Positions 1,798 to 37,376 of a stretch of DNA of 41,609 nucleotides are shown piece by piece. The position numbers and the translations under genes are program-made. Origin of the DNA: Candidatus Saccharicenans sp. (GTDB taxonomy: Bacteria > Acidobacteriota > Aminicenantia > Aminicenantales > Saccharicenantaceae). Position 1 is the first letter of the stretch. Each line of letters starts with the position of its first letter. Below the pieces are notes generated by a model that ran no database searches, was not told where the DNA came from, and was given only the letters and a program-made list of their open reading frames with translations. Location: positions 1 through 41,609 of the forward strand of contig JAOAIU010000056.1 of assembly GCA_026414545.1 (NCBI GenBank), in the 5' to 3' direction.

Positions 1798-4242
1798 CTA
1801 ACTCCTGCTTTCAGGCCCAGAGGAGTCACCTGAAATACCCGAAGCCCTGCCGGTCATCCTGATGATCACTGCCAGCAACAACAAGCCCATCACCAAAACA
1901 CAGGCGGCCAGGACCAGCTTGAAGGCCGGCCTGACCAGGAAGGTAAAACCGAACAAGAACTGGAAAAGAGGACCGGTTTTCATCAGGTCAGCCCCGAGCC
2001 TGGAATCCCGGTGAGAAGTTTTGAGCGGGGAGCTGGCTTCAATTTTTCCGAAGAAGATCCTGGAGTTCAGACTGTGACAATCGGTGCAGCCATTTTTCCC
2101 GAGAGCCTGCTGGGCTGGCCTGACGTTATGGGCCAGCGGCCAGGTGATGGCCCGGGCCGCCCGGTGCTGGCCTGCTTTTAGCTTTCCATTTTTGTCCAGG
2201 CTAAAGACAAAGCCCGAAGCCACGTAAGCTAATTTACGGTCAGGTTTCGTTTCAGACAGCTTTTTCAAAGCAAGCGTTACCTGTTCCTCGGTGAGAATTT
2301 CTGGGCCGGAGCCGATGGCCGCCAGATTTCTGACCTGGAAACCAGAAAGGAATGGCTGAAATTCATCGCCTGCCAGCCAGCAGATTTCTGGGGTGGAAAC
2401 AGGCTCTCCGCCTTTCTCTGCTTTATCCAGATAGCCCTCAGTTATCCTGTAAATATACTTACCAATAAGAAAAACCGGTTGGCGGCCGTTAGCGAACGGC
2501 TTCAGGTTCTGCAAGGCGCTGAGAACCTTGTCTTCAACTCCTGCTGGCGGGTTGTCCGGGTCGAACTCGGGCAGCAGTGGCCTGACTTCTCCGTTCTTTA
2601 GCTGCGCCAGGAGAAACTTACCTTTGCCTGGCTTTGCGGCCAGAGGAGTTTTTTCCAGCAGCCTGGCCTTGAGGCTACCATCCACATTCGGTTCAAACAG
2701 ACAATCAGAAATAATCACCGCCGGATAAAAACCTTCACCAGCCAGCGGAATAAGAGAATTCAGGAGACTGGCCACATTCTCTTTAAGATTAAAGATTTCA
2801 GGGACGGCGGCCAGGATTTCCTGGCTGTCAACCGGCTTCAGCTCGCCATCTTTTATCTCGGCCCAGAAGGCTGGCCACATTATTCTCTCGGGATAGACTT
2901 TTTTATCCGCTTCCCTGACGAAAACCGGTTCTACCAGTTGCGGATACTCCGAGGTCCAGACCGCCTTGCCGAAAATTCCCAGACGGTTGGCCCGGGAAGT
3001 ATAGATAGGCTGCGGCTCTTTTTCGGGCAACAAGCCTGAATGACAGACAGTGCAGGCCAGGCGCTCAAAATGAACCTTCGGAATCCCTTTATGCGCCGGC
3101 CTGGGAGCTCCGAGTCTTCCAGCAAAACCTTTTCCGCCTTTTTCCGGTTTCTGGCCGAGATGGCAGCCGGCGCAGGTAAAGTCCTGGGCCTGGAGATTGG
3201 AACGGCTGAGCTTTTCACCTTCAAAACCCCTGACCATCTCATGGCTGAGGTCATGGCGATGACAATCAACGCACTTTAAGCCGGCCTGCAGATGGACATC
3301 CCGGTCAACCTCAGCCCGGGATTTTGCTGTCCTGGGACTAACCGAATGGCAGGCCAGGCAGCGGTCATCCTCAGGAGGGGGCAATTCCAGGACAGCATTA
3401 TTCTTGCTGTCGAACAGGTTCGGGTTATACCTGACCTGAGGCACCACCGCCCATTCGCGGTCATCGGGATTGGGGCCGTCGGCTATGTTCCAGGTCGCGG
3501 GCAGGCGCGAGGCCATGCCCACCACCTCCCCCAGGCCCGAAGCCGCCGTCGCTGCCCAGCGAAAATTCTCCCTCATGACCTGCTTGACCCATTCCGAGTG
3601 GTCCTGGAGCGGCGATTTATGGTGACAGCCCAGGCAATTGATTTCCAGCTTGCCGGAGACATTCCAGCGAGAGTCCGGGGTCTGGTTTTCGTCTGACGGT
3701 TCGCCCGGACCTCCACCGCTGAGATTTCTGGCGAAAAGCGTTACGAATCTCCAATCGCTCAGGCCGAGCTGCTCGGGCGACCAGAATCCCGGATATTTCT
3801 GGAAAGAAATCGGAAGCTGTACCCCGGTCCTATTATCAACCAGGAACCAGGGCTCGGTCCGACGGTCAACGGCTGGCCTGTTTTTATAATTGAAATGTGT
3901 TCCCTGGCTGATGGTGGAATAACTATGGCAGGGTTCGCAGGAATAGCGGGTGGAAAAAGGCAGGGCGTTCGGGGCGGCCGGGACTATTTTTTGATTGAAC
4001 TCGTCGTTAAGGGGGATGCGGTGGAGCGGGGAGAGCTGGCTGCCCGACCATTCTTTTTTCTCTTCTGCCTTTAGCTTTATTTCCTGCCCCGGGCTGACCT
4101 CGGAACGGGCTTCGAGCAGCCTGGAAACTGAAACGGCCATAAGAATGAAAACTGCCAGACTGACCAGGAGCAGGCCCGTGTGCCAGATGGACCTTAAGGT
4201 TATTCGTCGGCTTTCCTGCCTCCTATCGTTCTGCCTTCTCAT
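1798..4242 (-). CDS. Membrane-anchored multihaem cytochrome c (seven CXXCH)
   Basis: About 814 residues from the ATG at 4242, or 835 from an in-frame TTG at 4305; neither has a good ribosome binding site. Numbering from the TTG, a membrane anchor lies at about 43-61, haem motifs CEPCH, CLGCH, CLACH, CVDCH, CAGCH and CTVCH at about 123, 224, 316, 345, 378 and 418, then a long haem-free stretch, CTDCH at 740, and a second hydrophobic segment near 790-815. The haem-bearing part should sit in the periplasm with both ends in the inner membrane. It is followed within five bases by the cytochrome b-like gene, forming a two-gene electron-transfer module. Whether it is a carrier or a terminal reductase cannot be told; I did not recognise a characterised reductase. 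The Tat-exported oxidoreductase upstream may be a donor (inference). Confidence 0.85.
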   Translation of the reverse strand: MRRQNDRRQESRRITLRSIWHTGLLLVSLAVFILMAVSVSRLLEARSEVSPGQEIKLKAEEKKEWSGSQLSPLHRIPLNDEFNQKIVPAAPNALPFSTRYSCEPCHSYSTISQGTHFNYKNRPAVDRRTEPWFLVDNRTGVQLPISFQKYPGFWSPEQLGLSDWRFVTLFARNLSGGGPGEPSDENQTPDSRWNVSGKLEINCLGCHHKSPLQDHSEWVKQVMRENFRWAATAASGLGEVVGMASRLPATWNIADGPNPDDREWAVVPQVRYNPNLFDSKNNAVLELPPPEDDRCLACHSVSPRTAKSRAEVDRDVHLQAGLKCVDCHRHDLSHEMVRGFEGEKLSRSNLQAQDFTCAGCHLGQKPEKGGKGFAGRLGAPRPAHKGIPKVHFERLACTVCHSGLLPEKEPQPIYTSRANRLGIFGKAVWTSEYPQLVEPVFVREADKKVYPERIMWPAFWAEIKDGELKPVDSQEILAAVPEIFNLKENVASLLNSLIPLAGEGFYPAVIISDCLFEPNVDGSLKARLLEKTPLAAKPGKGKFLLAQLKNGEVRPLLPEFDPDNPPAGVEDKVLSALQNLKPFANGRQPVFLIGKYIYRITEGYLDKAEKGGEPVSTPEICWLAGDEFQPFLSGFQVRNLAAIGSGPEILTEEQVTLALKKLSETKPDRKLAYVASGFVFSLDKNGKLKAGQHRAARAITWPLAHNVRPAQQALGKNGCTDCHSLNSRIFFGKIEASSPLKTSHRDSRLGADLMKTGPLFQFLFGFTFLVRPAFKLVLAACVLVMGLLLLAVIIRMTGRASGISGDSSGPESRS

Positions 4243-4404
4243 TTCATATCTTTCATCAGGCTCTTTAATTTTTCTTTTATTAACTATCTTTAACCTGTTG
4301 ATCAACCCTGTTTGGCCTTATCCATCCAGTCTCTTTCACCCAGGTCCCGCCTGGAGCTCCTTTGTTCCAGCACTTAGATTACCGCTGTTCCCACTTTATT
4401 TTTC

Positions 4405-15470: not shown

Positions 15471-16841
15471 ATGAATCGTCTTAGCCGCTATTCAGCCGTC
15501 TTGTTTCCACTGGTTCTGGCCGCTTCTCTGGGTCTGATTACCTCCGGCAGCCTGCAAAAAGCGGGCGACGAGGCTCTGGGAACCAGGAAATACGGCGATT
15601 ACCAGACCCCTTCTTTTTGTGGAATCCAGTGCCATAACGATATCTACCAGCAATGGAAACAGGCCATGATGTCCCAGGCCTATACCCATCATTGGGATGA
15701 AATCGAGTACTTCAAGCTGGCCGTGCCCCAGGCGGAGAAAGACTCGATGGTGGCCGGAGTAAAAGCCGGGTGCAACGGTTGCCACACGCCGCTGGCCTTC
15801 CTGGCCGGGGATGTCCCCCCTCCGCTTCCATCCAAAAACAGCCGGGCCAATGAATCAGTTTCCTGCGAAGTCTGCCACACCATCACCGGGTTCGCCGGCG
15901 ATGTTCCTCACAATTTCAACTGGATCTCCGAGCCGGGGAAGAACAAGTACGGGCCGCGCGAAGGCAAGATTTCCCCGGAACACAACATGGTTAAATCTGA
16001 ATTTCTTGGCACCGCAGAATTCTGCGGCACCTGCCACAATGAAAAGAGTCCCTACGGCGTGTGGGTCAAATCGACCCATCTCGAATGGAAGGAAGGACCT
16101 TATGCTAAGCAGGGTGTCAAATGCCACGATTGCCACATGACCTATGCCCCGGGGAAAAGCGCTTCCATGGGAAATAAGTACCCGGATGTCAGGTTGCACC
16201 TGTTCCATGGCGCCCATGACCCCGGCAAGGTAAGGGGAACCATCGAACTGCGCGTCAACCCCGACCTGAACGAAGCCGCCCCGGGTGATACGGTTAGATT
16301 CACCATTGCCCTTTTCAACCAGAAGACCGGACACAAGTTCCCCACGGGCTCGGTTGAAGACCGCATTGTCTGGATGCATGTAGAAGCCATAGATTCCAAA
16401 GGCAACCGCTACCACCTTCCGGTTGACAAAAAAGGCTTTGAGGGAGAGGAATACACCATAGCCGCCGATACCCTGGCCTATCAAGATATGGGCATCGCTC
16501 TTAATGACCCCAATTTCAAGGGGGTTCAGAGAGACGGGGTGCCGGTCGGCGACCGTATCTTCCGCATGGCTTATTTTGACCCGCAGGGTCGGATGACCAT
16601 CCAGCAGTGGAACACCAAATCCCAGGGGGTTGATTACCGGCTCGGGCCGCGGGAAACGAAGTTAGAAACCTGCACTTTCAGAATTCCTGACACTGTCCCT
16701 CCGGGACCGTTGACTGTAACCGCCGTTCTGAACTACCAGAAACTGGTCAAGCCGGTGGCGGACTTCCTAGGTGTCCCCCCCGACGAGTCAGAAATAATTG
16801 AGGTTAACAGGCATTCCACGACTATCAAGATAGTCGATTGA
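15471..16841 (+). CDS. Periplasmic multihaem cytochrome c with an unusual CX3CH site
   Basis: A 456-residue exported protein. After a signal segment (about 9-27), the haem domain resembles the cytochrome c554-type multihaem family ('CHNDIYQQWKQAMM' corresponds to its first site). Canonical motifs are CNGCH (101-105), CEVCH (132-136), CGTCH (185-189) and CHDCH (218-222). The first site reads C50-G-I-Q-C54-H55, with three residues between the cysteines instead of two; the codons are clear and in frame. The C-terminal half (about 240-450) has no haem motif and looks like beta-sandwich. GGAGGG precedes the start. The next gene, 38 bases on, is a one-haem outer-membrane barrel, so the two may form an electron route across the envelope. 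Confidence 0.87.
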   Translation: MNRLSRYSAVLFPLVLAASLGLITSGSLQKAGDEALGTRKYGDYQTPSFCGIQCHNDIYQQWKQAMMSQAYTHHWDEIEYFKLAVPQAEKDSMVAGVKAGCNGCHTPLAFLAGDVPPPLPSKNSRANESVSCEVCHTITGFAGDVPHNFNWISEPGKNKYGPREGKISPEHNMVKSEFLGTAEFCGTCHNEKSPYGVWVKSTHLEWKEGPYAKQGVKCHDCHMTYAPGKSASMGNKYPDVRLHLFHGAHDPGKVRGTIELRVNPDLNEAAPGDTVRFTIALFNQKTGHKFPTGSVEDRIVWMHVEAIDSKGNRYHLPVDKKGFEGEEYTIAADTLAYQDMGIALNDPNFKGVQRDGVPVGDRIFRMAYFDPQGRMTIQQWNTKSQGVDYRLGPRETKLETCTFRIPDTVPPGPLTVTAVLNYQKLVKPVADFLGVPPDESEIIEVNRHSTTIKIVD

Positions 16842-16879
16842 TAGGTCCTAAAAACTAATCGGCCCGCAAGGAGGTGGCG

Positions 16880-18052
16880 ATGGAAAGAAAATATAAGATT
16901 ACCATTATATTTGTATTTCTCCTGGTGTTCCTGGTATCAGAAGCACTTTCCATCCCGGCTTTCGCCCGCAAGTACAGCCTGAGCTGCAAGGTCTGTCATA
17001 CTCCTTTTCCCAAGCTCAAACCCTACGGCGACGATTTCATGAACAACGGCTATGTTATCAAGGACAAAGAAACGCCACGCTACTATGTTGACACGGGGGA
17101 TGGTCTGCTTTCCCTCCTCCGGGAACTGCCCATAGCCATACGTTTCGAGGGCTTCCTGTCCCTGAACAATAGCAACAACAAGAAGCTGGATTTTGCCGCC
17201 CCCTTCCTGATAAAGCTTCTTTCAGGGGGAGAGATAACCCGACACCTCTCCTACTACTTCTACTTCTTCTTTACCGAAAAGGGCGAGGTGGCCGGCCTGG
17301 AAGATGCTTTTGTCATGGTAAACAATCTCTTCAACAAGGAACTGGATGTCTACGTCGGCCAGTTCCAGGTTTCCGACCCCCTGTTCAAGCGCGAGTTGCG
17401 CCTGATGTATGAAGATTACAAAATTTACAGCACCAAGGTGGGCCAGGCCCGGCCCGACCTGACCTACGACCGCGGACTCATGTTCACCTACAGCTTCAAG
17501 AAAGGTCCGGACCTCTGCCTGGAAATCATAAACGGGCTCGGTTTGCGCCCGGCCGATGACCTGGATACCTTTGACACCGACAAGTACAAGAATTTTCTGC
17601 TGCGGGTTTCCCAGGACATAACTGACTCGGTGCGGCTGGGAGCTTTCGGCTATTCCGGAAAAGAGAGGCAGGGAGACGCGGTCAACAGCCTCTGGATGCT
17701 GGGGGGCGACCTGACTCTATCCAGCCCCAAGCTGGAACTCAATGTGCAATATGTGGAACGTCGCGACAACAATCCCTACTTCTACATCCTGACCCCGGAA
17801 AAAGTATCGACCCGAGGTGGTTTTGCCGAATTGCTCTACTTTCCAAAAGGTGACGATTCCCGCTGGTACGCAGCTGGAATATTCAACTGGGTCGATTCAG
17901 AGCAGCCGGACATCAAGTACACTTCGGTCGGAGTTCACTATGGTTATTTGCTGAGGCGAAACATGCGAGCCACTGTCGAGGGCACCTATGTTTTCAAGAG
18001 CGAGCTGCCGAAGCACTTTCGACTGGGTGTGGGCTTGATCACTGCCTACTGA
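16880..18052 (+). CDS. One-haem outer-membrane beta-barrel protein
   Basis: About 390 residues from the ATG at 16880, preferred over a GTG at 16874 because AAGGAGG (16868-16874) would overlap the GTG and suits the ATG. A signal peptide ends near 'IPAFA' (residue 29), and a single haem motif CKVCH follows at 36-40 in 'FPKLKPYGDDFMNNGY'. The remainder alternates polar and aromatic residues in strand-like blocks and ends in a strand typical of outer-membrane barrels. Similar N-terminal-haem barrels are widespread beside multihaem cytochromes. With the gene 38 bases upstream it could form a porin-cytochrome conduit; whether the barrel encloses the cytochrome is not shown by sequence. Confidence 0.75.
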   Translation: MERKYKITIIFVFLLVFLVSEALSIPAFARKYSLSCKVCHTPFPKLKPYGDDFMNNGYVIKDKETPRYYVDTGDGLLSLLRELPIAIRFEGFLSLNNSNNKKLDFAAPFLIKLLSGGEITRHLSYYFYFFFTEKGEVAGLEDAFVMVNNLFNKELDVYVGQFQVSDPLFKRELRLMYEDYKIYSTKVGQARPDLTYDRGLMFTYSFKKGPDLCLEIINGLGLRPADDLDTFDTDKYKNFLLRVSQDITDSVRLGAFGYSGKERQGDAVNSLWMLGGDLTLSSPKLELNVQYVERRDNNPYFYILTPEKVSTRGGFAELLYFPKGDDSRWYAAGIFNWVDSEQPDIKYTSVGVHYGYLLRRNMRATVEGTYVFKSELPKHFRLGVGLITAY

Positions 18053-23357: not shown

Positions 23358-23386
23358 TTGACAGGGAACGGCAGTTGACGTTTAAT
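23358..23386 (+). promoter_or_regulatory. Promoter of the three-gene unknown operon
   Basis: A perfect -35 box TTGACA (23358-23363) and TTTAAT (23381-23386) are 17 bases apart. RNA would begin near 23393, with a 27-base leader carrying GAGG ahead of the TTG at 23420. It is back to back with the rpsP promoter. Confidence 0.75.
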
Positions 23387-23419: not shown

Positions 23420-24472
23420 TTGGCCGAGGAACGGAAGATTCTTCTCAGGCTCCTTCAAATAATAAATAACAACTATACCGAGTCGGACCTGGAAAGCCTG
23501 ATCATGTCAATGGTCCGCCTACTCCTTCCCCTTATCAGGAAACAGAGCGGATTATACCTTAGGTTGGCCGGCTACCAACCCAGGGATATTGCCCTGTTAA
23601 CCATCTCCCCCCTGTTCATCAGGAACAGGCAGGGCAGGTTCCCGGTCCTGGAAAAGCTTTTCAACTGGAAAATTGTCGAGAAGTTCATGGTCGCCAGGGA
23701 AACTGACTTCAGACGCTACCTGAAGAATATACTGGCCCGTCGCCTGAAACAAACTTTCTACTACCTGAGCAGCGAAATCCAGCCGGAAAGAAACAAGATT
23801 AAGAGGGAAATTCTCTATGCCCTGAAAAAGCTTCCCGGCTGCCGCATAAACAGAGAAAACGGCCGGACGTTGATAACCATCGGGCCAGACCGCCCGGGAA
23901 AAACGGGGCTAAAACTGTTGACAGCTATTCAGTCCGAACGATTGCTCGAAATCTGCCTCAGCCAGGGACTCGGTGGTCTTCAGGTCCCCAAGTTTTTTAA
24001 GAAACTGGTTGAGGTTTTATCAGAACAGAAAGTAACCGCCGAAATCCCCTTGAACACCTTGCTGGAAGCGTACATTGAAACCCAGAAAAACTACCTCCTG
24101 GCTGAAGCCGGGAATGGTCTGGTTACCTGGACCAGGCCCGAGACCGGAACATTAATTACGGATTTAAATAGCTGGCTGGAAGAGTTAAGAGCCAGGAATA
24201 CTCAGCTTCTCAACCGTTACCTGGCCAGGAACAAGATCGACAAAAAAGAAATGGAAGCTTACACCAAGGCCCTGAACGACCTGCTTCAGGACTGGCAAGA
24301 AGGCGGCCAGGAAAAATCACTTTTTACCTACCTGAAGAAATATGCCCCGGAGATATCGTCGGAAGAATACCGGAGAGAAAAGAGAAAAATACTTGAATAC
24401 CTGGTCAAAACCTCCAGGGACTTCCTCAAGACTAAACTCCATGAACAACAGGCAACAGCGGGGGGAATATGA
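23420..24472 (+). CDS. Uncharacterised helical protein with weak sigma-70 region 2 resemblance
   Basis: A 350-residue, strongly charged, mostly helical cytoplasmic protein starting at TTG with GAGGCAGG upstream. I do not recognise the family with confidence. Residues about 50-120 recall sigma-70 region 2: 'GYQPRDIALLTISPLFIRN' in place of the core-binding helix and 'TDFRRYLKNILARRLKQTF' in place of the 'F..YL..I.RNRLID' helix. A short strand pair ('GRTLITIGPDRPG') and further helices follow; no region 4 helix-turn-helix is obvious. It is the first gene of a tight operon: its stop overlaps the next start as ATGA (24469-24472). It could be a divergent sigma factor, a sigma-derived adaptor, or unrelated. 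The sigma reading is a hypothesis only. Confidence 0.7.
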   Translation: MAEERKILLRLLQIINNNYTESDLESLIMSMVRLLLPLIRKQSGLYLRLAGYQPRDIALLTISPLFIRNRQGRFPVLEKLFNWKIVEKFMVARETDFRRYLKNILARRLKQTFYYLSSEIQPERNKIKREILYALKKLPGCRINRENGRTLITIGPDRPGKTGLKLLTAIQSERLLEICLSQGLGGLQVPKFFKKLVEVLSEQKVTAEIPLNTLLEAYIETQKNYLLAEAGNGLVTWTRPETGTLITDLNSWLEELRARNTQLLNRYLARNKIDKKEMEAYTKALNDLLQDWQEGGQEKSLFTYLKKYAPEISSEEYRREKRKILEYLVKTSRDFLKTKLHEQQATAGGI

Positions 24473-25155
24473 CGGACCGAAATTCAAAACGGGATGCAGA
24501 CCAGGAACTTAAGGACTTTTGTTCCGAGATAACCAGGCCGCCGGTTTTCCAGAACAGGATAAAGCTATTTCACCATCTCAGCCAGGTATCGCCATTCCCT
24601 CATCTGGTAGGCTTCAGCGGCCTACCCTCCTATGAGATTTATGCGGAAAAAAGAGCATTCATCTCATCCGACCACAGCTTCCTTCTTAGAATTCTTCACG
24701 ACCATCTGAGCGGACGTCTGGAAGCCCACCTTCTCCATCCCCTGGAACATAAGTACCGCTATGCCTTCATCCTGCTGGAAAGTTTGAACCGGGAATTCCT
24801 GACTGACCTTCACGGCTGGACTACCCTGGGCCAGATTGACGAAGAGCGTTCGCTGGCTTCTGTCTCCGTCTGCCCCCCCTCGGCAGTATTCGAGCTGAAG
24901 CGAGGCCAAGAGCCGGTTCAAATTTATGCCGAGGAGAGGCTGGCGGGCTGCCAGTTGAAAACCGAGTTCTTTTCGGTCGGGCCTCAATTGACCCTGAAAG
25001 TTCAGCTGGTTAACCTGGCGGAGGCTGGGGAAATAAAAAGGATGGTCCTGGTAATCGACGGCGGGGAAACCCTGATTGCCGTCCCCCAGAAAGACCTGGT
25101 TTTTTACGAGCTGCCAGAGGGAGCCCAAACTTTAAGAATTTATCTGTATGAATAG
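24469..25155 (+). CDS. Uncharacterised cytoplasmic protein, middle gene of the unknown operon
   Basis: A 228-residue protein with no signal peptide or membrane segment. The first half is mixed helix ('FQNRIKLFHHLSQVSPFPHLVGFSGLPSYE'), and the second half is rich in beta strands ('PQLTLKVQLVNLAEAGEIKRMVLVIDGGETLIAVPQ'), ending in 'LRIYLYE'. I recognise no family. It overlaps the upstream gene by four bases and the downstream membrane protein gene by eight, so all three are translated together and probably act as one unit. An adaptor between the first and third products is a reasonable guess, not shown by sequence. Confidence 0.75.
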   Translation: MTDRNSKRDADQELKDFCSEITRPPVFQNRIKLFHHLSQVSPFPHLVGFSGLPSYEIYAEKRAFISSDHSFLLRILHDHLSGRLEAHLLHPLEHKYRYAFILLESLNREFLTDLHGWTTLGQIDEERSLASVSVCPPSAVFELKRGQEPVQIYAEERLAGCQLKTEFFSVGPQLTLKVQLVNLAEAGEIKRMVLVIDGGETLIAVPQKDLVFYELPEGAQTLRIYLYE

Positions 25156-27526
25156 AAAGAACAATAGCCAAGCACGAAATCCGGTGGCTGACCTGGAGAA
25201 CTTTTACAACCAGACTCTATCCAGCCTGTCCATTGCCGCCGACGAACTGGAAAAGGTGCGCCTGATCACCGAATTTTTCCAGTCCACCCGTGATCTGCCC
25301 GAGGACCTGACCCGCTCCTTTCATCTGCAACTGGCAGGGCTGTTTTTCTTCCTGACGGCCTCCTTCCAGCCCGACGGCCTGCCCCCTGAGGAATTGCAGG
25401 GTTACCTGGAAGCTTCCTGGTACCTCTATCGAAGATTCCAGGATAAGATTCTCCCCGATCAACTAAAGGAAACCTTGAGCAATCTCCTGTTCTACCTGGC
25501 CCTTAGCCATTTTTACCTGGGCGAACTGGAAGATGGCCTGAAAATCCTGAGAAAGAAACAGAAGCTGGGCGCGGTCACTTCCCCTGACAACCTGGAAAGC
25601 AATCTGGAGAGTACCCAGGCAGAGCTTCCTGACAATATCCGGGAACTCAAGGACCAGGGAAGTTCCAACTGGCTGATTTTTTTGGAATTGGCCAAGAAGG
25701 TGGGCCGGGAGGACGGCCTGACCCTGGATATTGACCTGATCCAGGATAAATGGAAAAGATTTACAGGCTGGAGTAGCGACAGCCTTTTCTGCCCGCTGGT
25801 CGAAAAGCGTGGCTTACTCCAGGCTGGAGAGCGGGCCAGGTTGCTCCTGCTCGAAAGCCGCTGCCGGAGAACGGGAGCAGCCGAAGGCCACAACCTGGTC
25901 AGGTTTTCCAACCTGCCTGCCTATCACCAGGAAAAAACTTACCTGATGGCTGCCGATGCCCTGGAGGCCGCCGACTATCTGCTTAAGACCGAATATCAGT
26001 TTAACCTTCCTCCATGTACCCTTCTTTTTTCCTTCAGCGAAAAGAATTTCATGTATTCCGGAGAGAGTCTCAGCCTGCCCCTGGCCACCCTTTCCCTCAC
26101 CCAGAAATTGATATCCAGCCAGTGCCGCTTTTATTTTATCTATTCGCGGGAAGCGGCCTTCACCGGCAAAATCGATCTGAACGGAGAGACCCAGCGCATT
26201 TCCTCCGAAGCCCTGGAGCAAAAGGTCAGGGCCGCTTTTTACTCTGGCATCCGTTACCTGGTCATCCCGGCTGAAAACCTCAAGGAAGCCAGGAGCTTCG
26301 TCTTCAATCTTCTGGCCAAGCATCCCTGGAGGAGGCTGGAGCTAATAGGTATACACAATATAAGGGAAATAAACGCAGACAACCGGATTTGCCAGAGGAT
26401 AAAGCTGCCTTTAATCGCCCACTTGGTCAGGACCCGGGGCCCATTGATCAGGCGGGGGCTGTTGGGCCTCATCGGACTTTTCGCCATAATCACTGCCCTG
26501 GTCATCATCAATAAGAATCCCTCCTTTCACTTCTGGAAAATAAGGCACCCGGTAATAATTGAACCACGTGACAACCGTCTTTTCGCCAGAAACCCGGAAG
26601 AACAGCTTCTATGGACCTTCCCGCTGCGACGGCCCTTAAAACCGGAGAGCTTTCAGCAGAAATTTGTGGACCTCGACGGAGACGAAGAAGAGGAAATCCT
26701 GGTCTCGGGAGAGTACCTGGGTGAGGAAAAGGAAAGCGCAGAACTGTTCTGCCTGAAGAAGTCGGGAAAATTATTATGGAGTTACCGGCCGGGCCGGAAG
26801 ATAAAAACTCTGACCGACGAGTTCTCCAATCACTACTCGATCAAGAGGTTCGAAGTCGCAAACTTCAGCAACGCTTCACCCGAAAAATCTGTGCTGGTAA
26901 TCGGAAACCACGTAACCTGGTACCCGACCCAGATTGCAATGCTTAATGTCAGGGGTCAGGTTCTCGGCGAATACTGGCACGCTGGCCATCTCGGCCAGGC
27001 CGCCCTGTTAATAGAAGACCTGGATGAGGATGGTTGGCAGGAAATCATCATCGGCGGTACGAATAACGACTTTCAACAAGCTTGCCTTCTGGTGCTGGAC
27101 TCAAGAGCCATTGCCGGCTGTTCACCCGGAAGCGGAAAACCAGAATTTCAATTCGGGGAATTACCGGCCGGGTCCCAGGAATACTACCTTCTGCTTCCCA
27201 GAACCACGATTAACCAGGTAATGGGGCTGCGCAATTATGTTACATCGGTCCAGCTCTTCCGTGAGGAAAAGACTCTCGAAGTAATCACCAATGAATTTAA
27301 CAAAGAGGCTCCCTGCCAGATGATGTACAACTTTGATTTCAAGTTCAACCCCTTGCTTTCCCGCCCAACCGACCTCCTGACCGAAGCGGTCAAAGAGCTG
27401 GTGGTCTCCCGGGTTCTTCCTCCCCACTCCGAGACTGAGCTCAGGAGTCTTAAAGAGCGAATAAGATACTGGGACGGCGAGGCCTGGGTCAACTATCCGG
27501 CCAGAAATAAAAAACTCAATTTCTAA
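25148..27526 (+). CDS. Membrane protein with degenerate Lon-protease-like domain and FG-GAP-like repeats
   Basis: A 792-residue protein. The N-terminal 270 residues are helical, with a TPR-like stretch near 110-140. Residues about 295-385 follow the Lon protease (S16) pattern: 'SGESLSLPLATLSL' for 'DGPSAG..MATAL', 'AFTGKIDLNG' for 'AMTGEITLRG', and 'EALEQKVRAAFYSGIRYLVIPAEN' for 'GGLKEKLLAAHRAGIKTVILPxEN'. Ser307 fits the catalytic serine, but Glu357 stands where the catalytic lysine should be, so it is probably inactive. Arginines precede a single membrane span (about 434-456), which places the N-terminus inside. Outside, two calcium-loop-like FG-GAP units occur at about 505-520 (DLDGDEEEEILVSG) and 622-637 (DLDEDGWQEIIIGG). 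It ends the three-gene operon before a clear terminator. A signalling or assembly role is inferred from architecture. Confidence 0.75.
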   Translation: MNRKNNSQARNPVADLENFYNQTLSSLSIAADELEKVRLITEFFQSTRDLPEDLTRSFHLQLAGLFFFLTASFQPDGLPPEELQGYLEASWYLYRRFQDKILPDQLKETLSNLLFYLALSHFYLGELEDGLKILRKKQKLGAVTSPDNLESNLESTQAELPDNIRELKDQGSSNWLIFLELAKKVGREDGLTLDIDLIQDKWKRFTGWSSDSLFCPLVEKRGLLQAGERARLLLLESRCRRTGAAEGHNLVRFSNLPAYHQEKTYLMAADALEAADYLLKTEYQFNLPPCTLLFSFSEKNFMYSGESLSLPLATLSLTQKLISSQCRFYFIYSREAAFTGKIDLNGETQRISSEALEQKVRAAFYSGIRYLVIPAENLKEARSFVFNLLAKHPWRRLELIGIHNIREINADNRICQRIKLPLIAHLVRTRGPLIRRGLLGLIGLFAIITALVIINKNPSFHFWKIRHPVIIEPRDNRLFARNPEEQLLWTFPLRRPLKPESFQQKFVDLDGDEEEEILVSGEYLGEEKESAELFCLKKSGKLLWSYRPGRKIKTLTDEFSNHYSIKRFEVANFSNASPEKSVLVIGNHVTWYPTQIAMLNVRGQVLGEYWHAGHLGQAALLIEDLDEDGWQEIIIGGTNNDFQQACLLVLDSRAIAGCSPGSGKPEFQFGELPAGSQEYYLLLPRTTINQVMGLRNYVTSVQLFREEKTLEVITNEFNKEAPCQMMYNFDFKFNPLLSRPTDLLTEAVKELVVSRVLPPHSETELRSLKERIRYWDGEAWVNYPARNKKLNF

Positions 27527-27609: not shown

Positions 27610-27638
27610 AAAAAGAAGGATGGGAACCTTCTTTTTTT
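27610..27638 (+). terminator. Intrinsic terminator of the three-gene operon
   Basis: AAAAAGAAGG (27610-27619) pairs with CCTTCTTTTT (27627-27636) around a 7-base loop and runs into T residues. The flanking A run lets it work in both directions. It lies about 85 bases after the last stop codon. Confidence 0.8.
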
Positions 27639-29247: not shown

Positions 29248-31281
29248 TTAATGCTTCTTGTCGCCAGAAGAAGAGGCTTTTTCTCCGCTGGAATGCTGGC
29301 TGCCCGCACCCCTGGAGGGTGAGGCGCTGCTGGTATTGGAACCTCTCGAAGAGCTAACGGACGACGGGTTTCCAGAATAGGCAGCTGAACCTGAGTCAAC
29401 GAAATAACCGCCCTCAGGCCCCAGCCGGATCAATCCTCTCGGGGTAATCCTTAAGCCCAGACCCCTGGCCTCCCTCGAAGTTAAGCCCAGCTCCGGGGAA
29501 ACCACAGAGTTTCGGGAACTGTCATAGATGATCCGCGCTCCGAGCTGACGGGCGGTCTGCAGGTCGGGATTCCAGTCCCGGAATCTCAGACCAGAACTTT
29601 CCGTCATTGCGGACGAAGCCCTGGCTTGAGCCTGTCTCATCGACTCCGGCCTGGCCTGAAGCTCTGCTGAGGTAGCCTGCTGCTTCCGAACTCCCCGCTC
29701 TATCATCTGGCCCTTTATGGCTTCAGAATCTGCCATAGAGGTTCTGGCAGTTTCCGTCTCGCTCCTGCTTTTTAAGAAACGGAAAATGGCCAGGTTCCAG
29801 GCTGGAACGGTTCCTCCTTCTGGCCTTGATTTTTCTCTTTCTGATTGAACCGGCGCTATTTTCTCCGCGACTTCGCTCCAGGAAACTTTCCGGCCAACCA
29901 GGTCCCGGGCTCCAAGGTCATCGGGCCTAACCAGCATAGGTTCCGGCGGCCTGGCTGAGATTCTTTTCAGGACTTCCTGGTCTCCACTGTCTATGGCCCT
30001 GGCCAGGCTGGCCACCATCTTCCTGTAGCTATCTGGAATCGGCACGGTCTGAGCCTGGGCTTGGGCCTTTTTCAACTGGTCCTTAGTAATCTTGCGAAGG
30101 GCAGGTTGTTCTGAAGATTTACCGGGCGGAAGTACCGTCCCGTTGGGGCCATAAAAATCCCAGTATCCATAACCGTACCCGTAATAACCCAGCCAATCAT
30201 ACAGAAACCATGGTCTCCAGCTGTAGTAACCGAAATAGAAATCCCAGACAGCCCAGGCCGGAGCAAAGGCCGATCCCGGAATCCAGACCCAGCCTTTCTT
30301 CTTATCCCATTGCCAGATTCCCAGGTGATAGGGCACCCAACCCCAGGGTTCTGCCGGCACCCAGAACAGCTGTCCGTTGAGGAAAGTCCAGTTACCGTAA
30401 TAATACGGACTCCAGTTGCCCCATGGGTAATAATCATTATAGAAAGGTCTCCAGACGTAACCGAAATAGTCATCCCAGACCCACTCTCCGTATTGATTGG
30501 AGTAATACTGGGCGAAATAGAAAACAGCCGGGGGGAGCTTCTGGATGGGCTTTGGCAACGGAGTAAGCCCTTTATGAAGTTCAAGGAAATGCTTGTTCAG
30601 GTCAGCATTCCAGGACTCAAACTCGCTGAGTTCCGGAAAGTTGGCCTTTATCTCCACCTGGTGGCCGTGGTTAACCAGTAGACTTGTCCCCTTTCTGGCG
30701 GTCAGGGACTTGAGCTCCCTGGGAGATGGGCCATAAAGCAAGGAGGCCTTACCCTCCTTTACTGTTAGCCAGGTTTCACCGCCATCGCTCACCCGGGCTA
30801 CAATGACCGTCTTATTCCTCATTTTCAGGGCGGCATTGGGAGTTAATAGCTGGAAAACTTCCCAGGAATTGTAGGCGGTGTACATAAGATAAATCTGCCC
30901 TTTCTCCAGGAACAGGTTTGAGAGCTGGTCATCAGAACTCAAGCTCTGGGCCATGATGGTTTCAATTTTCAACCTCGTCTCAGTTCCCAGGCGAACTATG
31001 GTTCCACTGTCAAACTGGATTTCACAGGGTTTGTCGTAAGTGACCACTGTGTCCCCGGGTCCCAGCGGAAAATTCAGGCTGGTCGATTCTGGTCTGGCCA
31101 GCCCGGGTCTTACGACTTCCGGCGCCCTGACACCGGGCTCCTCTGGAATATAACTGATAAAACCATAGTAAAAATTAGTTTCGCCATTCACCAGGGTATA
31201 GTGCTTGCTGCCAGCAGCCGCCGGCTGAAGAAACCCGCACCCCAGAACCCCTACGAGCAGCCAGAAATATATTTTTTTCAT
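29248..31281 (-). CDS. Secreted FecR-domain protein with W/Y-rich repeats
   Basis: About 677 residues from the ATG at 31281; a TTG four codons upstream is less likely because TGGGGTG fits the ATG. A signal peptide ends near 'PAAAG'. Residues about 75-200 form a FecR-like domain ('VVTYDKPCEIQFDSGTIVRLGTETRLKI'). Residues about 260-380 are packed with Trp, Tyr and Pro in units such as 'YGEWVWDDYFGYVWRP' and 'WGWVPYHLGIWQW', the pattern of the W-rich domain often annotated DUF6600. The C-terminus is low-complexity, rich in Ser, Gly and Arg. The protein should lie in the periplasm or on the surface. Function is unknown; carbohydrate or envelope binding is only suggested by the aromatics. Confidence 0.82.
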   Translation of the reverse strand: MKKIYFWLLVGVLGCGFLQPAAAGSKHYTLVNGETNFYYGFISYIPEEPGVRAPEVVRPGLARPESTSLNFPLGPGDTVVTYDKPCEIQFDSGTIVRLGTETRLKIETIMAQSLSSDDQLSNLFLEKGQIYLMYTAYNSWEVFQLLTPNAALKMRNKTVIVARVSDGGETWLTVKEGKASLLYGPSPRELKSLTARKGTSLLVNHGHQVEIKANFPELSEFESWNADLNKHFLELHKGLTPLPKPIQKLPPAVFYFAQYYSNQYGEWVWDDYFGYVWRPFYNDYYPWGNWSPYYYGNWTFLNGQLFWVPAEPWGWVPYHLGIWQWDKKKGWVWIPGSAFAPAWAVWDFYFGYYSWRPWFLYDWLGYYGYGYGYWDFYGPNGTVLPPGKSSEQPALRKITKDQLKKAQAQAQTVPIPDSYRKMVASLARAIDSGDQEVLKRISARPPEPMLVRPDDLGARDLVGRKVSWSEVAEKIAPVQSEREKSRPEGGTVPAWNLAIFRFLKSRSETETARTSMADSEAIKGQMIERGVRKQQATSAELQARPESMRQAQARASSAMTESSGLRFRDWNPDLQTARQLGARIIYDSSRNSVVSPELGLTSREARGLGLRITPRGLIRLGPEGGYFVDSGSAAYSGNPSSVSSSRGSNTSSASPSRGAGSQHSSGEKASSSGDKKH

Positions 31282-31756
31282 TTTGCACCCCAAGTCATGT
31301 TATACAGCATAAAACGTGCCAGCCCTGGCCCGGTACTTTCCCTATTATCCTCATCTCCGAAGACCAGAGGCTGTCATCGTTAGGCTACTCCTGACACCTC
31401 TATGATACACCCAAAAAGGCCTGAATAGCTAACCCGTCCAGCATACCGTCAGGCAGAATAATTTTCATGACCGGGCCGGTATGCAGCAATTAAGACGCTA
31501 ACCGACGTGAGTGTTCTGAACTACCCGGAGTTTTCCGGCCGTTATCCAACCCGAGCCATCTGTTCCTTTGCCCTGGCTGAACAGCCAAATTTGGTAAATC
31601 CGGTGATTTTTAAGATACAGAAACCGACCGCAGAAGTCGGCCTTAACTCAGCCGACCGAGCAGGCTGGATTCAATTGTTCTTACTTTCCTTGCGGCCAGG
31701 TTTTTTTACTGATCATGTTGCTTATCTTAATAGAAGACGGGTAAAATATAAGCAGG
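31282..31756. other. 475-base divergent intergenic region
   Basis: No credible gene. An open frame from a GTG at 31507 runs into the next gene but lacks a ribosome binding site and family features. The right end has a promoter (31718-31747) for the small membrane protein gene. Confidence 0.45.
31718..31747 (+). promoter_or_regulatory. Promoter nine bases from the next start codon
   Basis: TTGCTT (31718-31723) and TAAAAT (31742-31747) are 18 bases apart. Transcription would start at about 31754, almost at the ATG at 31757, giving a leaderless or three-base-leader RNA. Confidence 0.4.
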
Positions 31757-34982: not shown

Positions 34983-37106
34983 CTATCCCTTCTTTTTTAT
35001 GGTTCTGATAATTCTTTCTTTGGTTAACTCTGAGCCAGTCTTCTGCTGCGAGGAAGAAGTTATGACCCGGCCGTAGCAATCGAGGGCCTCAACGGTGTAG
35101 AGGTAGGTCCTGTCCGCTTCGAGGTACTTATCTATGTAGACCACTTGGCCGGACGAAAAATCCGATTCACTGAAAGTTTGCACAATATGGGGATTGGTCC
35201 CGCTCCCGGCTTCTTTCCGGGTTAACCGGTAACTATCGATATTAAAGGGAGCTGACTTGCCGACCTGGATGGTTATCCGGGCAAAAGCCCGGCGCAGTAT
35301 CCAGGCCCTTTCCACCCTGCGTTCTACCTGAATATTGATATTTATTTCAGGGATGTAACCGGTCCCGTTCAGGCTGAGAAGAGTCTGTGGTCTGGACGGG
35401 TCGTTGGAGTTAATGCCAAAGGTAGCGACCAGAGGTCCGGTGTTATATGCATCAAACCTGAAGACAACATCACGGCTACTTCCGGCATTGACCGTAAAAG
35501 GAAAAGCTGTCGCCCGGCAGGAAAAATCCGTAGCCCCGGACAACCGGTTGATACCGGTGATGATCAGCGGTCCGGCCCCGTCATTGTAAATGGTCAGGGT
35601 CAGGTCAGCATAGGTGCAGATATTGGCCTGCCCGAAGCTCAAGGAAGAGGCAGAAAGACGCAGCGCGGGGTTGGCTCCGGCATACATCCTGAAACTGATG
35701 GGCGTGCCCGAGCCGGTGATTTCGGTCAGCCCCATTCCGGTGGGGGTACCGTCATAGCGGTTGGTGGCCGGGTAAGTCGAGGGCCCCAGCTCAGAACCAG
35801 GCCGGTAAAAATCGGCCGAGTTAAATCCCCTTATGCCCAGCTCAATTTCGTCCAGGCCATCGGCCTGAACCAGCCTCAAAAGTTTGTGTTCGGTATAGGA
35901 ATTGTCATATAGGAAATTGGTGCCGTAGGAGTTAAGTCTGGCGTCAACATGCCAGACAGCCAGGCCCACATTTCCGCCGTTGACGTTCACCAGACGGGAA
36001 TCGTTCTGGACAGCGTACCTGTTCTGAACCAGAAAGTATTCATTAAAAATATCCCCGCTGATGGCCGCGGGAAAGAAAATCAGAGCGTCGGGATAGGCAC
36101 CCGTGGCCCTCAGGCTGTAAACCTGGTTTCCGGCACTGAAAACAGCCGGGGTCAGCCAGTCCAGGATGAACTTGGAAAAGGCATTGTGGTCGTAGCTGTT
36201 GGCATCCATCATGTCAAAACCGCCGACGCCACCCTTGGGACCGACCGAACCATCATAATCGTAATAATCAGGCAGGCCCAGGGCGTGGCCGGTTTCGTGG
36301 ATGGCCACCAGTGGGCTGAAAGGGGGAGAAGGATAATTAAATAGCTCCCACTGCCAGGAATATTTCCGGAGTCTCTTGCTGTCGAGCAGATAGCTGGCAT
36401 CGCTGAATGTTGTCTGGTAACCCCACCAGAAAGTTGCCCAGTCACCGTGCGGACCCGTCCAGAAAACCAGGAAATAGTCTATGTAGCCATCGTTGTCATT
36501 GTCGTACTGGGAAAAATCATGCCCCTGGGCATCGTAATAGTTCAAGACTTCTTTTATAAGAGCCTGGCGACCCTGAGTTGTCTCTGCCACCTGGGAGCGG
36601 TTATAAGCCGTGATATACCAGCCCAGCACATTGCCCTGGATATTCAGTTGACCGTAAGAGGCCCGGGAATAATAGGCCCTCATGCTTTCGTAAGGATAAT
36701 TCGGGTCATAAATATCCTCAGCCCCGAAGAGCTTCTGGGCGATGAAATCGGCGCCGGTGATGGGAGCATAATCCTGGAAGGCAATCAAGATGGCCAGAAC
36801 CTTGACCTGTCCCCTGGTTGGCATGCCCCGCCAGCTCGGAGGCGGGGCCAGCAGCCTGTCAATCTGCTGCGGGCTCAAGCCCCGGGCTTCCAAGGCCAGG
36901 CGCTTCACCCGGTAATTCAGGTGGGCCACAACCTCCGGGTCCATCCGGTCGTTGCCGATTTCCCTGGCCGCGGCCACCCGAGCAGCCAGGGTGCCATCCT
37001 GTTTATATTTTTGAATCTGTTCCCTGGTAGGCGGTTCCAGGGCCTGAAGCCCTGTGGATAACAACAGCACATAAATTAACAATAAAAAAAAGACCTTGTT
37101 GCGCAT
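34983..37106 (-). CDS. Secreted M6-family metalloprotease
   Basis: About 708 residues from the ATG at 37106, which begins a standard signal peptide (MRNKVFFLLLIYVLLLSTG); the frame is open further upstream to 37202 but that part is not signal-like. A propeptide region precedes the catalytic domain, with the zinc site H270-E-T-G-H274-A-L-G277-LPD and the 'GGFDMMDANSYD' Met-turn-like stretch, as in immune inhibitor A-type M6 proteases. A C-terminal ASH/choice-of-anchor D-like domain ('SSLSFGQANIC', 'GINSNDPSRPQTLLSLNGTG') and a fibronectin III-like end follow. The enzyme should degrade extracellular protein. It is followed two bases later by the barrel gene. Confidence 0.9.
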   Translation of the reverse strand: MRNKVFFLLLIYVLLLSTGLQALEPPTREQIQKYKQDGTLAARVAAAREIGNDRMDPEVVAHLNYRVKRLALEARGLSPQQIDRLLAPPPSWRGMPTRGQVKVLAILIAFQDYAPITGADFIAQKLFGAEDIYDPNYPYESMRAYYSRASYGQLNIQGNVLGWYITAYNRSQVAETTQGRQALIKEVLNYYDAQGHDFSQYDNDNDGYIDYFLVFWTGPHGDWATFWWGYQTTFSDASYLLDSKRLRKYSWQWELFNYPSPPFSPLVAIHETGHALGLPDYYDYDGSVGPKGGVGGFDMMDANSYDHNAFSKFILDWLTPAVFSAGNQVYSLRATGAYPDALIFFPAAISGDIFNEYFLVQNRYAVQNDSRLVNVNGGNVGLAVWHVDARLNSYGTNFLYDNSYTEHKLLRLVQADGLDEIELGIRGFNSADFYRPGSELGPSTYPATNRYDGTPTGMGLTEITGSGTPISFRMYAGANPALRLSASSLSFGQANICTYADLTLTIYNDGAGPLIITGINRLSGATDFSCRATAFPFTVNAGSSRDVVFRFDAYNTGPLVATFGINSNDPSRPQTLLSLNGTGYIPEININIQVERRVERAWILRRAFARITIQVGKSAPFNIDSYRLTRKEAGSGTNPHIVQTFSESDFSSGQVVYIDKYLEADRTYLYTVEALDCYGRVITSSSQQKTGSELTKERIIRTIKKKG

Positions 37107-37376
37107 CAACACAGGCTCCCTCCCCTTCTCACAACAACTAAACCTCACTCCTATTATGCTTATTGAGAAATGACTGTCAATAAATAATTCAATCCCGGTC
37201 AAGCAACTGAGCAGGCCCCGTTGATATCTTCAGCCTGTTGCCCGGACTATCCTTCGATTCGTTTATCAGGCCTGAAATAAAGAACTGCACCTGGCAATAA
37301 AATCTTTCAAGATGGCGGCCGGAACCGGCCGGATCGGGGAGCTTTCCGGAAAGTGAACCCGGGCGATAAATTTTTT

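Follow-up and report, generated by a model that had tools for sequence, protein, structure and literature searches.

Signal-triggered proteolysis by Lon-type proteases is, to our knowledge, known from few systems, the clearest of which is CalpL/CalpT/CalpS, a type III CRISPR-associated Lon protease cascade that responds to an internal nucleotide. We describe here a cassette of three genes on the forward strand of a 41,609-nucleotide stretch of DNA from a 2.52-Mb genome of Candidatus Saccharicenans sp. (contig JAOAIU010000056.1, positions 1 to 41,609; the whole stretch is referred to below as the window). The genes encode P1 (23420–24472, 350 amino acids, TTG start), P2 (24469–25155, 228 amino acids), and P3 (25148–27526, 792 amino acids), the last of which is a candidate receptor-protease. 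CalpL is reported to cleave the anti-sigma factor CalpT bound to the sigma factor CalpS (PMC11417357). The two systems are alike in that each comprises a Lon-type protease with a sensor (a putative one in the case of P3) in the same chain and two partner proteins. They differ in that CalpL senses cA4 by means of a SAVED domain (PMC11417357), whereas P3 has a membrane span and an FG-GAP/propeller-like region, and in that no sequence match to a sigma or anti-sigma factor was obtained for P1 or P2. The reading that we favor, with confidence a little short of even, is that the cassette is a transmembrane receptor-protease with two partners, in which P3 would cut P2, or the complex of P1 and P2, and would thereby free the basic protein P1.

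For YlbL of Bacillus subtilis we know of no partners of the P1 or P2 type. Like P3, YlbL has a Lon domain that is tethered to the membrane and contains a Ser-Lys dyad, but it carries a PDZ domain, is without a propeller, and acts on a substrate, YneA, that lies mostly outside (PMC6051672). LonC (MtaLonC) is likewise a Lon-type protease without ATPase activity, but it is reported to be a hexamer in solution with a non-canonical AAA+ part and LonC-specific insertions (PMC3391209), and it is not a receptor. No description of the cassette was found in the full-text literature searched, the coverage of which leaves out most subscription papers and bioRxiv.

All three genes are co-directional in the list of open reading frames (ORFs), and they overlap. 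The end of P1 (24472) and the start of P2 (24469) overlap by 4 nucleotides and the end of P2 (25155) and the start of P3 (25148) by 8, in agreement with an earlier reading of the DNA from its letters alone (hereafter, the sequence-only reading). At the latter junction (TATGAATRA) P2 ends with Tyr-Glu-stop and P3 begins with Met-Asn; this 8-nucleotide overlap is identical in 15 of the 15 loci having both genes, one of which is from another class. P1, P2, and P3 are real genes under purifying selection, with ratios of nonsynonymous to synonymous substitution (dN/dS) in the computed pairs of 0.12–0.20, 0.10–0.29, and 0.10–0.14, respectively. Upstream of P1 is a promoter-like element (23358–23386, forward strand), predicted from consensus and conservation, that consists of TTGACA, a spacer of 17 nucleotides, and TTTAAT. 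The perfect −35 hexamer (23358–23363), also correctly noted in the earlier reading, is invariant in all 11 of the upstream regions that were aligned (out of 15 loci with P1) and is followed 17–18 nucleotides on by TT(T/A)AAT; the TTG start of P1 is invariant in the same 11 regions. A promoter scan reported another, 9-of-12 site instead of the TTGACA/TTTAAT pair, which the scan omits because it requires an A at the second position of the −10 element.

Of 19 genomes from the genus, 15 have P1, 15 have P3, and 14 have both, and the trio occupies a fixed position between rpsP and era in those genus loci that reach that far. Within the order, P1 was present in 15 of 94 genomes, all from this genus. 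When samples of 396 genomes of the phylum were searched, P1 matched nine (seven from the genus, plus G210 and G221), and a profile of the N-terminal half of P3 matched 18 at E ≤ 0.001, namely, the same nine and nine others in which the match was limited to the Lon stretch. The latter (46–80 profile positions, in frames of 767–1069 amino acids) we took provisionally to be ordinary Lon proteases, and we similarly set aside five non-genus genomes that matched the Lon stretch only, one of which (G033), when read by eye, proved to have a Lon-type ATP-dependent protease. Relatives of P1 and relatives of P3 that extend beyond the Lon stretch occur in the same nine genomes, which represent three genera; if the two were distributed independently, the chance of three shared genera among 210 would be about 7e-7 (the figure for nine genomes being inflated by kinship). 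The genome from another class, G221, has the whole trio in the same order at 25–26% identity: its P1 relative is 26% identical (6e-28), its P3 relative is 25% identical (1e-61), and its P2 relative was matched by hhalign at a probability of 97.2% (3.7e-11). No rpsP or era lies alongside the trio in G221, the only genome matched among 38 of its class. A three-gene unit with conserved synteny, present also in another class, is supported by these observations. As for the remaining genomes of the genus, G006 has lost the trio, because rpsP directly adjoins a FecR-like gene there; in G013, P3 sits at the edge of a contig and P1 was not found; and G001 and G016, the contigs of which stop beside rpsP, are uninformative on the trio.

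P3 begins with helical repeats, which are followed by a Lon-like (S16) peptidase domain, then a single membrane span, and finally an FG-GAP/propeller-like region (all coordinates below are on the forward strand). The last three of these parts the sequence-only reading had recognized. The helical-repeat (TPR-like) region (amino acids 12–203; 25181–25756) was delimited by helices in an AlphaFold2 model, in which the predicted local distance difference test score (pLDDT) is 82–93 over amino acids 11–140 and lower beyond; one weak match to TPR_2 was seen in 1 of 14 members. The Lon-like domain (amino acids 264–410; 25937–26377) was recognized with a profile built from 12 members, which matched the peptidase domain of LonB (PDB 1z0b) with E = 2.1e-5; most of the other matches were Lon chains, and the 1z0b series, from A. 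fulgidus, comes nearest by profile among solved domains. An AAA+ module is part of full-length LonB, whereas none was found in P3: the 12 families matched by any of the 14 members at E ≤ 1 include no AAA family. Nor did Pfam scans reveal a SAVED or CARF domain in P3 or an HTH (helix-turn-helix) family in any of the 14 members. In the alignment with LonB, S307 stands opposite the Ser of GDS and K359 opposite the Lys of QKIEAA, which we take to be the catalytic residues of that protease. Both, together with G305, G340, G346, P374, and N377, are invariant in 17 of 17 P3 proteins, down to 25% identity, and to judge from the alignments the Lon-type Ser-Lys dyad is kept at conserved positions. Because of this invariance we disfavor the proposal of the sequence-only reading that an outside signal is passed through a pseudo-protease.

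The single span (amino acids 437–455; 26456–26512) was assigned by hydropathy. It is the only segment with a mean hydropathy of 1.6 or more, one such segment is present in each of the 17 proteins, and a helix in the model (amino acids 431–456) covers it. In the FG-GAP/propeller-like region (amino acids 470–792; 26555–27523), which would lie outside the membrane, FG-GAP_3 matched 13 (best 7.6e-6) and Beta-prop_CGLA all of the 14 members at E ≤ 1, and one or two DxDxDG-type loops are found per protein in 17 of 17. For the window protein alone, the best propeller match reached 17.9 bits, short of the cut-off of 26.8. When the whole model was compared by Foldseek, the best matches were designed and natural propellers with E values of about 1e-3, none of them below 0.001.

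The outer half of P3 is not confined to the genus. A profile of the C-terminal half matched 53 of the order's 94 genomes; 15 of these belong to the genus and 38 do not (of 75 non-genus genomes), and the latter gave 52 matches with E values down to 2e-64. Twenty-two distinct, better-scoring proteins were examined, and in every one an HTH-like N-terminus is followed by a hydrophobic segment and then the propeller. The HTH-like stretch, of the type SWKEIAxYLGCDxRTCxRWE, was identified by a strict pattern in 16 proteins and by eye in six, and the nearest PDB chains to these N-termini were the DNA-binding domains of RacA and of terminase small subunits (E 0.02–0.08). P3 and these proteins thus share a homologous span and propeller half but differ in the effector part, which is HTH-like in the one case and made of helical repeats and a Lon-like domain in the other. 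Because an HTH-like domain precedes this half in the relatives, we ascribe a probable sensory role to it, in line with the earlier signaling proposal. If the relatives bind DNA, the N-terminus would be cytoplasmic, and this comparison argues for the propeller half of P3 being a sensor outside the membrane. No second, HTH-type copy was found in the genus genomes in the search with the C-terminal profile; therefore, within the genus this sensor seems to exist solely in protease form. The outer half looks like a ready sensor module of which the effector half has been exchanged. Proteins of the HTH–span–propeller type are widespread in the order (loci L034, L035, L037, L046, L144–L149, and L164–L173) and are candidates for one-component regulators in the membrane; the literature searched does not appear to describe them.

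How, then, might the cassette work? P3 would use its propeller-like half, on the outer side of the cytoplasmic membrane, to sense a ligand, a surface, or the state of the envelope and, by way of the one span, would control the cytoplasmic Lon-like Ser-Lys peptidase domain, which would operate without an ATPase, while the N-terminal helical repeats would dock the partners. Activated P3 would then carry out limited cleavage of P2 or of the P1/P2 complex, and P1 so freed would act on nucleic acid, its most likely role being that of a transcription regulator. The cassette would thus resemble CalpL/CalpT/CalpS in its working, but with an outside signal instead of cA4. P1 is basic (pI 9.75 in the window, 9.6–9.8 in three of three members computed), and no membrane segment was found in P1 or in P2. 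We favor signal-triggered cutting because the outer half is sensor-like, the dyad is constrained, the genes are coupled, and CalpL/CalpT/CalpS offers a precedent. A bolder version, in which limited proteolysis by an ATPase-free Lon-like protease, switched by an outside propeller, frees a transcription factor of an unknown class (P1) from its holder (P2), the whole having arisen by exchange of an HTH domain for a protease in a one-component membrane regulator, is one that we put forward tentatively and consider somewhat unlikely. Were it true, the cassette would represent a new kind of bacterial receptor, in which a direct regulator has been turned into a proteolytic relay. Since the outer half is shared with the HTH-type relatives, these provide a natural domain-swap comparison, with one sensor and two types of output, and P1 and P2 are two uncharacterized protein families tied to the candidate receptor-protease.

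Several observations weigh against cutting that frees a regulator. The genes are sometimes found apart, and the synteny expected by the sequence-only reading, which holds in the genus and in G221, fails to that extent. In G018, P2 is truncated and P3 absent, yet P1 (L060/L109) is intact, with a dN/dS of 0.12–0.13; because P1 is constrained there, it may work alone, or else the loss is recent. In G210, from the same class but another order, P3 (31% identity, 2e-115) stands alone beside glnA, and another contig, of 3.5 kb (L195, C39), holds a P2-like piece next to a relative of P1 that is divided between two frames; the split reflects either decay or an assembly error, which look the same here. 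As to P3, a conserved dyad is not proof of proteolytic activity, and the charge asymmetry beside the span is only mild. Over large parts of the Lon and propeller regions the model is poor (mean pLDDT 62), and no Lon protein is among the 50 Foldseek matches listed for it. Pfam HTH families matched four of six of the N-termini of the HTH-type relatives, below cut-offs (best 1.4e-4). P2 shows no anti-sigma feature and has no Pfam family, and the earlier reading likewise recognized no family for it; its only PDB matches, to designed repeat proteins over amino acids 14–52, were marginal or local, with no stretch passing alone, and were set aside. The P1 family is uncharacterized and, as far as profiles reveal, has no match among the families of sigma factors or other regulators: a Pfam scan of 15 members gave nothing above cut-off, and marginal or local matches to Beta-APP, PriCT_1, DUF7149, DUF2510, and a macrodomain were set aside.

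The P1 results bear directly on the alternative that the cassette is a strict analogue of CalpL/CalpT/CalpS, with P1 a very diverged sigma factor, P2 an anti-sigma factor, and P3 a protease that cuts P2. The three-part make-up and the basic character of P1 would fit, the order of helices in the model of P1, a fair one (pLDDT 80; predicted template modeling score 0.44), may recall sigma regions 2 and 4, and phage RpoD was a weak second-ranked match when the model was compared by Foldseek with a viral fold library (probability 0.63, E 0.22). The sequence-only reading had likewise seen a resemblance to sigma-70 region 2. That resemblance was not reproduced: none of the 15 P1 members matched a sigma family at E ≤ 1, even with the Sigma70 region 2 and 4 profiles included; hhalign against extracytoplasmic function (ECF) sigma factors of the same genome gave probabilities of 0.2%, 0.7%, and, in a forced global alignment, 1.3%, out of register, as compared with 0.1% and 0.3% for unrelated controls (P2 and the N-terminus of P3); PDB profile searches yielded nothing significant; and Foldseek found no PDB fold for the model at E ≤ 0.001. 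Because none of the comparisons by Pfam, hhalign, PDB profiles, or Foldseek (with two libraries) was significant, we have not adopted a sigma identity for P1 and keep it as a rival that we judge unlikely.

It is quite unlikely, in our estimation, that the Lon-like domain is instead a non-catalytic relay through which the signal reaches P1 and P2 by conformational change. Such a relay would accord with the missing AAA+ domain and with the score of Lon_C in the window protein, which is below the Pfam cut-off (15.3 versus 21.1 bits; 8 of 14 members match at E ≤ 1, best 1.8e-4), but it would not need both S307 and K359, which are the residues kept throughout the family. Helical repeats often dock protein partners, and P1 and P2 could on that basis be adaptors of a housekeeping membrane protease, active in quality control or envelope remodeling and without a role in transcription. 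YlbL, a membrane-tethered Lon-domain protein reported to act in checkpoint recovery (PMC6051672), would fit this view. We give this view only a slight chance, as the outer half is common to HTH-type proteins and P1 and P2 co-occur specifically with P3. Finally, it is very improbable that the cassette serves defense or conflict, with a protease effector set off by an event at the envelope: the distribution is patchy, with losses, and PADLOC gave a CARF-Lon match to P3, but that match is weak (E 0.0053) and confined to the Lon stretch, the PADLOC and PHROGs scans otherwise gave weak matches only, the rpsP–era position is fixed in the genus loci that extend to it, and no mobile or defense gene was recognized beside the trio in the ORFs read.

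Returning to the preferred reading of a coupled receptor-protease cassette, the weakest part of the observed unit is its terminator. The sequence-only reading had called it clear; a hairpin followed by a T-run does lie at 27610–27636 (forward strand), but it is weak, with 4 terminator-like sites around it as compared with 8.4 in shuffled sequences. A similar hairpin in locus L053 scored on the minus strand only, and none of the same form was found in L047. The neighbors of the trio, read by eye with no dedicated search for cas genes or repeats, are rpsP, a KH gene, rimM, trmD, and rnhB on one side and a CoA-binding gene and era on the other, both groups being mostly on the opposite strand.

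Elsewhere in the same genome (contig C32, locus L180), genes for an ECF sigma factor and a putative one-span zinc-finger anti-sigma factor lie between two TPR-CHAT protease-like genes. We considered whether the trio is a version of such loci with Lon in place of CHAT and rejected the idea; no homology links P1 or P2 to them, and no parallel was found in the literature. The window also contains, at 29248–31293 (minus strand), a gene for a FecR-like protein with a W/Y/G-rich middle, the gene that directly follows rpsP in the trio-less G006. Two multihaem-like proteins with many CxxCH motifs (1798–4305 and 15471–18052) and a large, secreted-looking protein with the HExxH-type metalloprotease motif HETGH (34983–37202, minus strand) were recognized by eye, the former from ORF translations.

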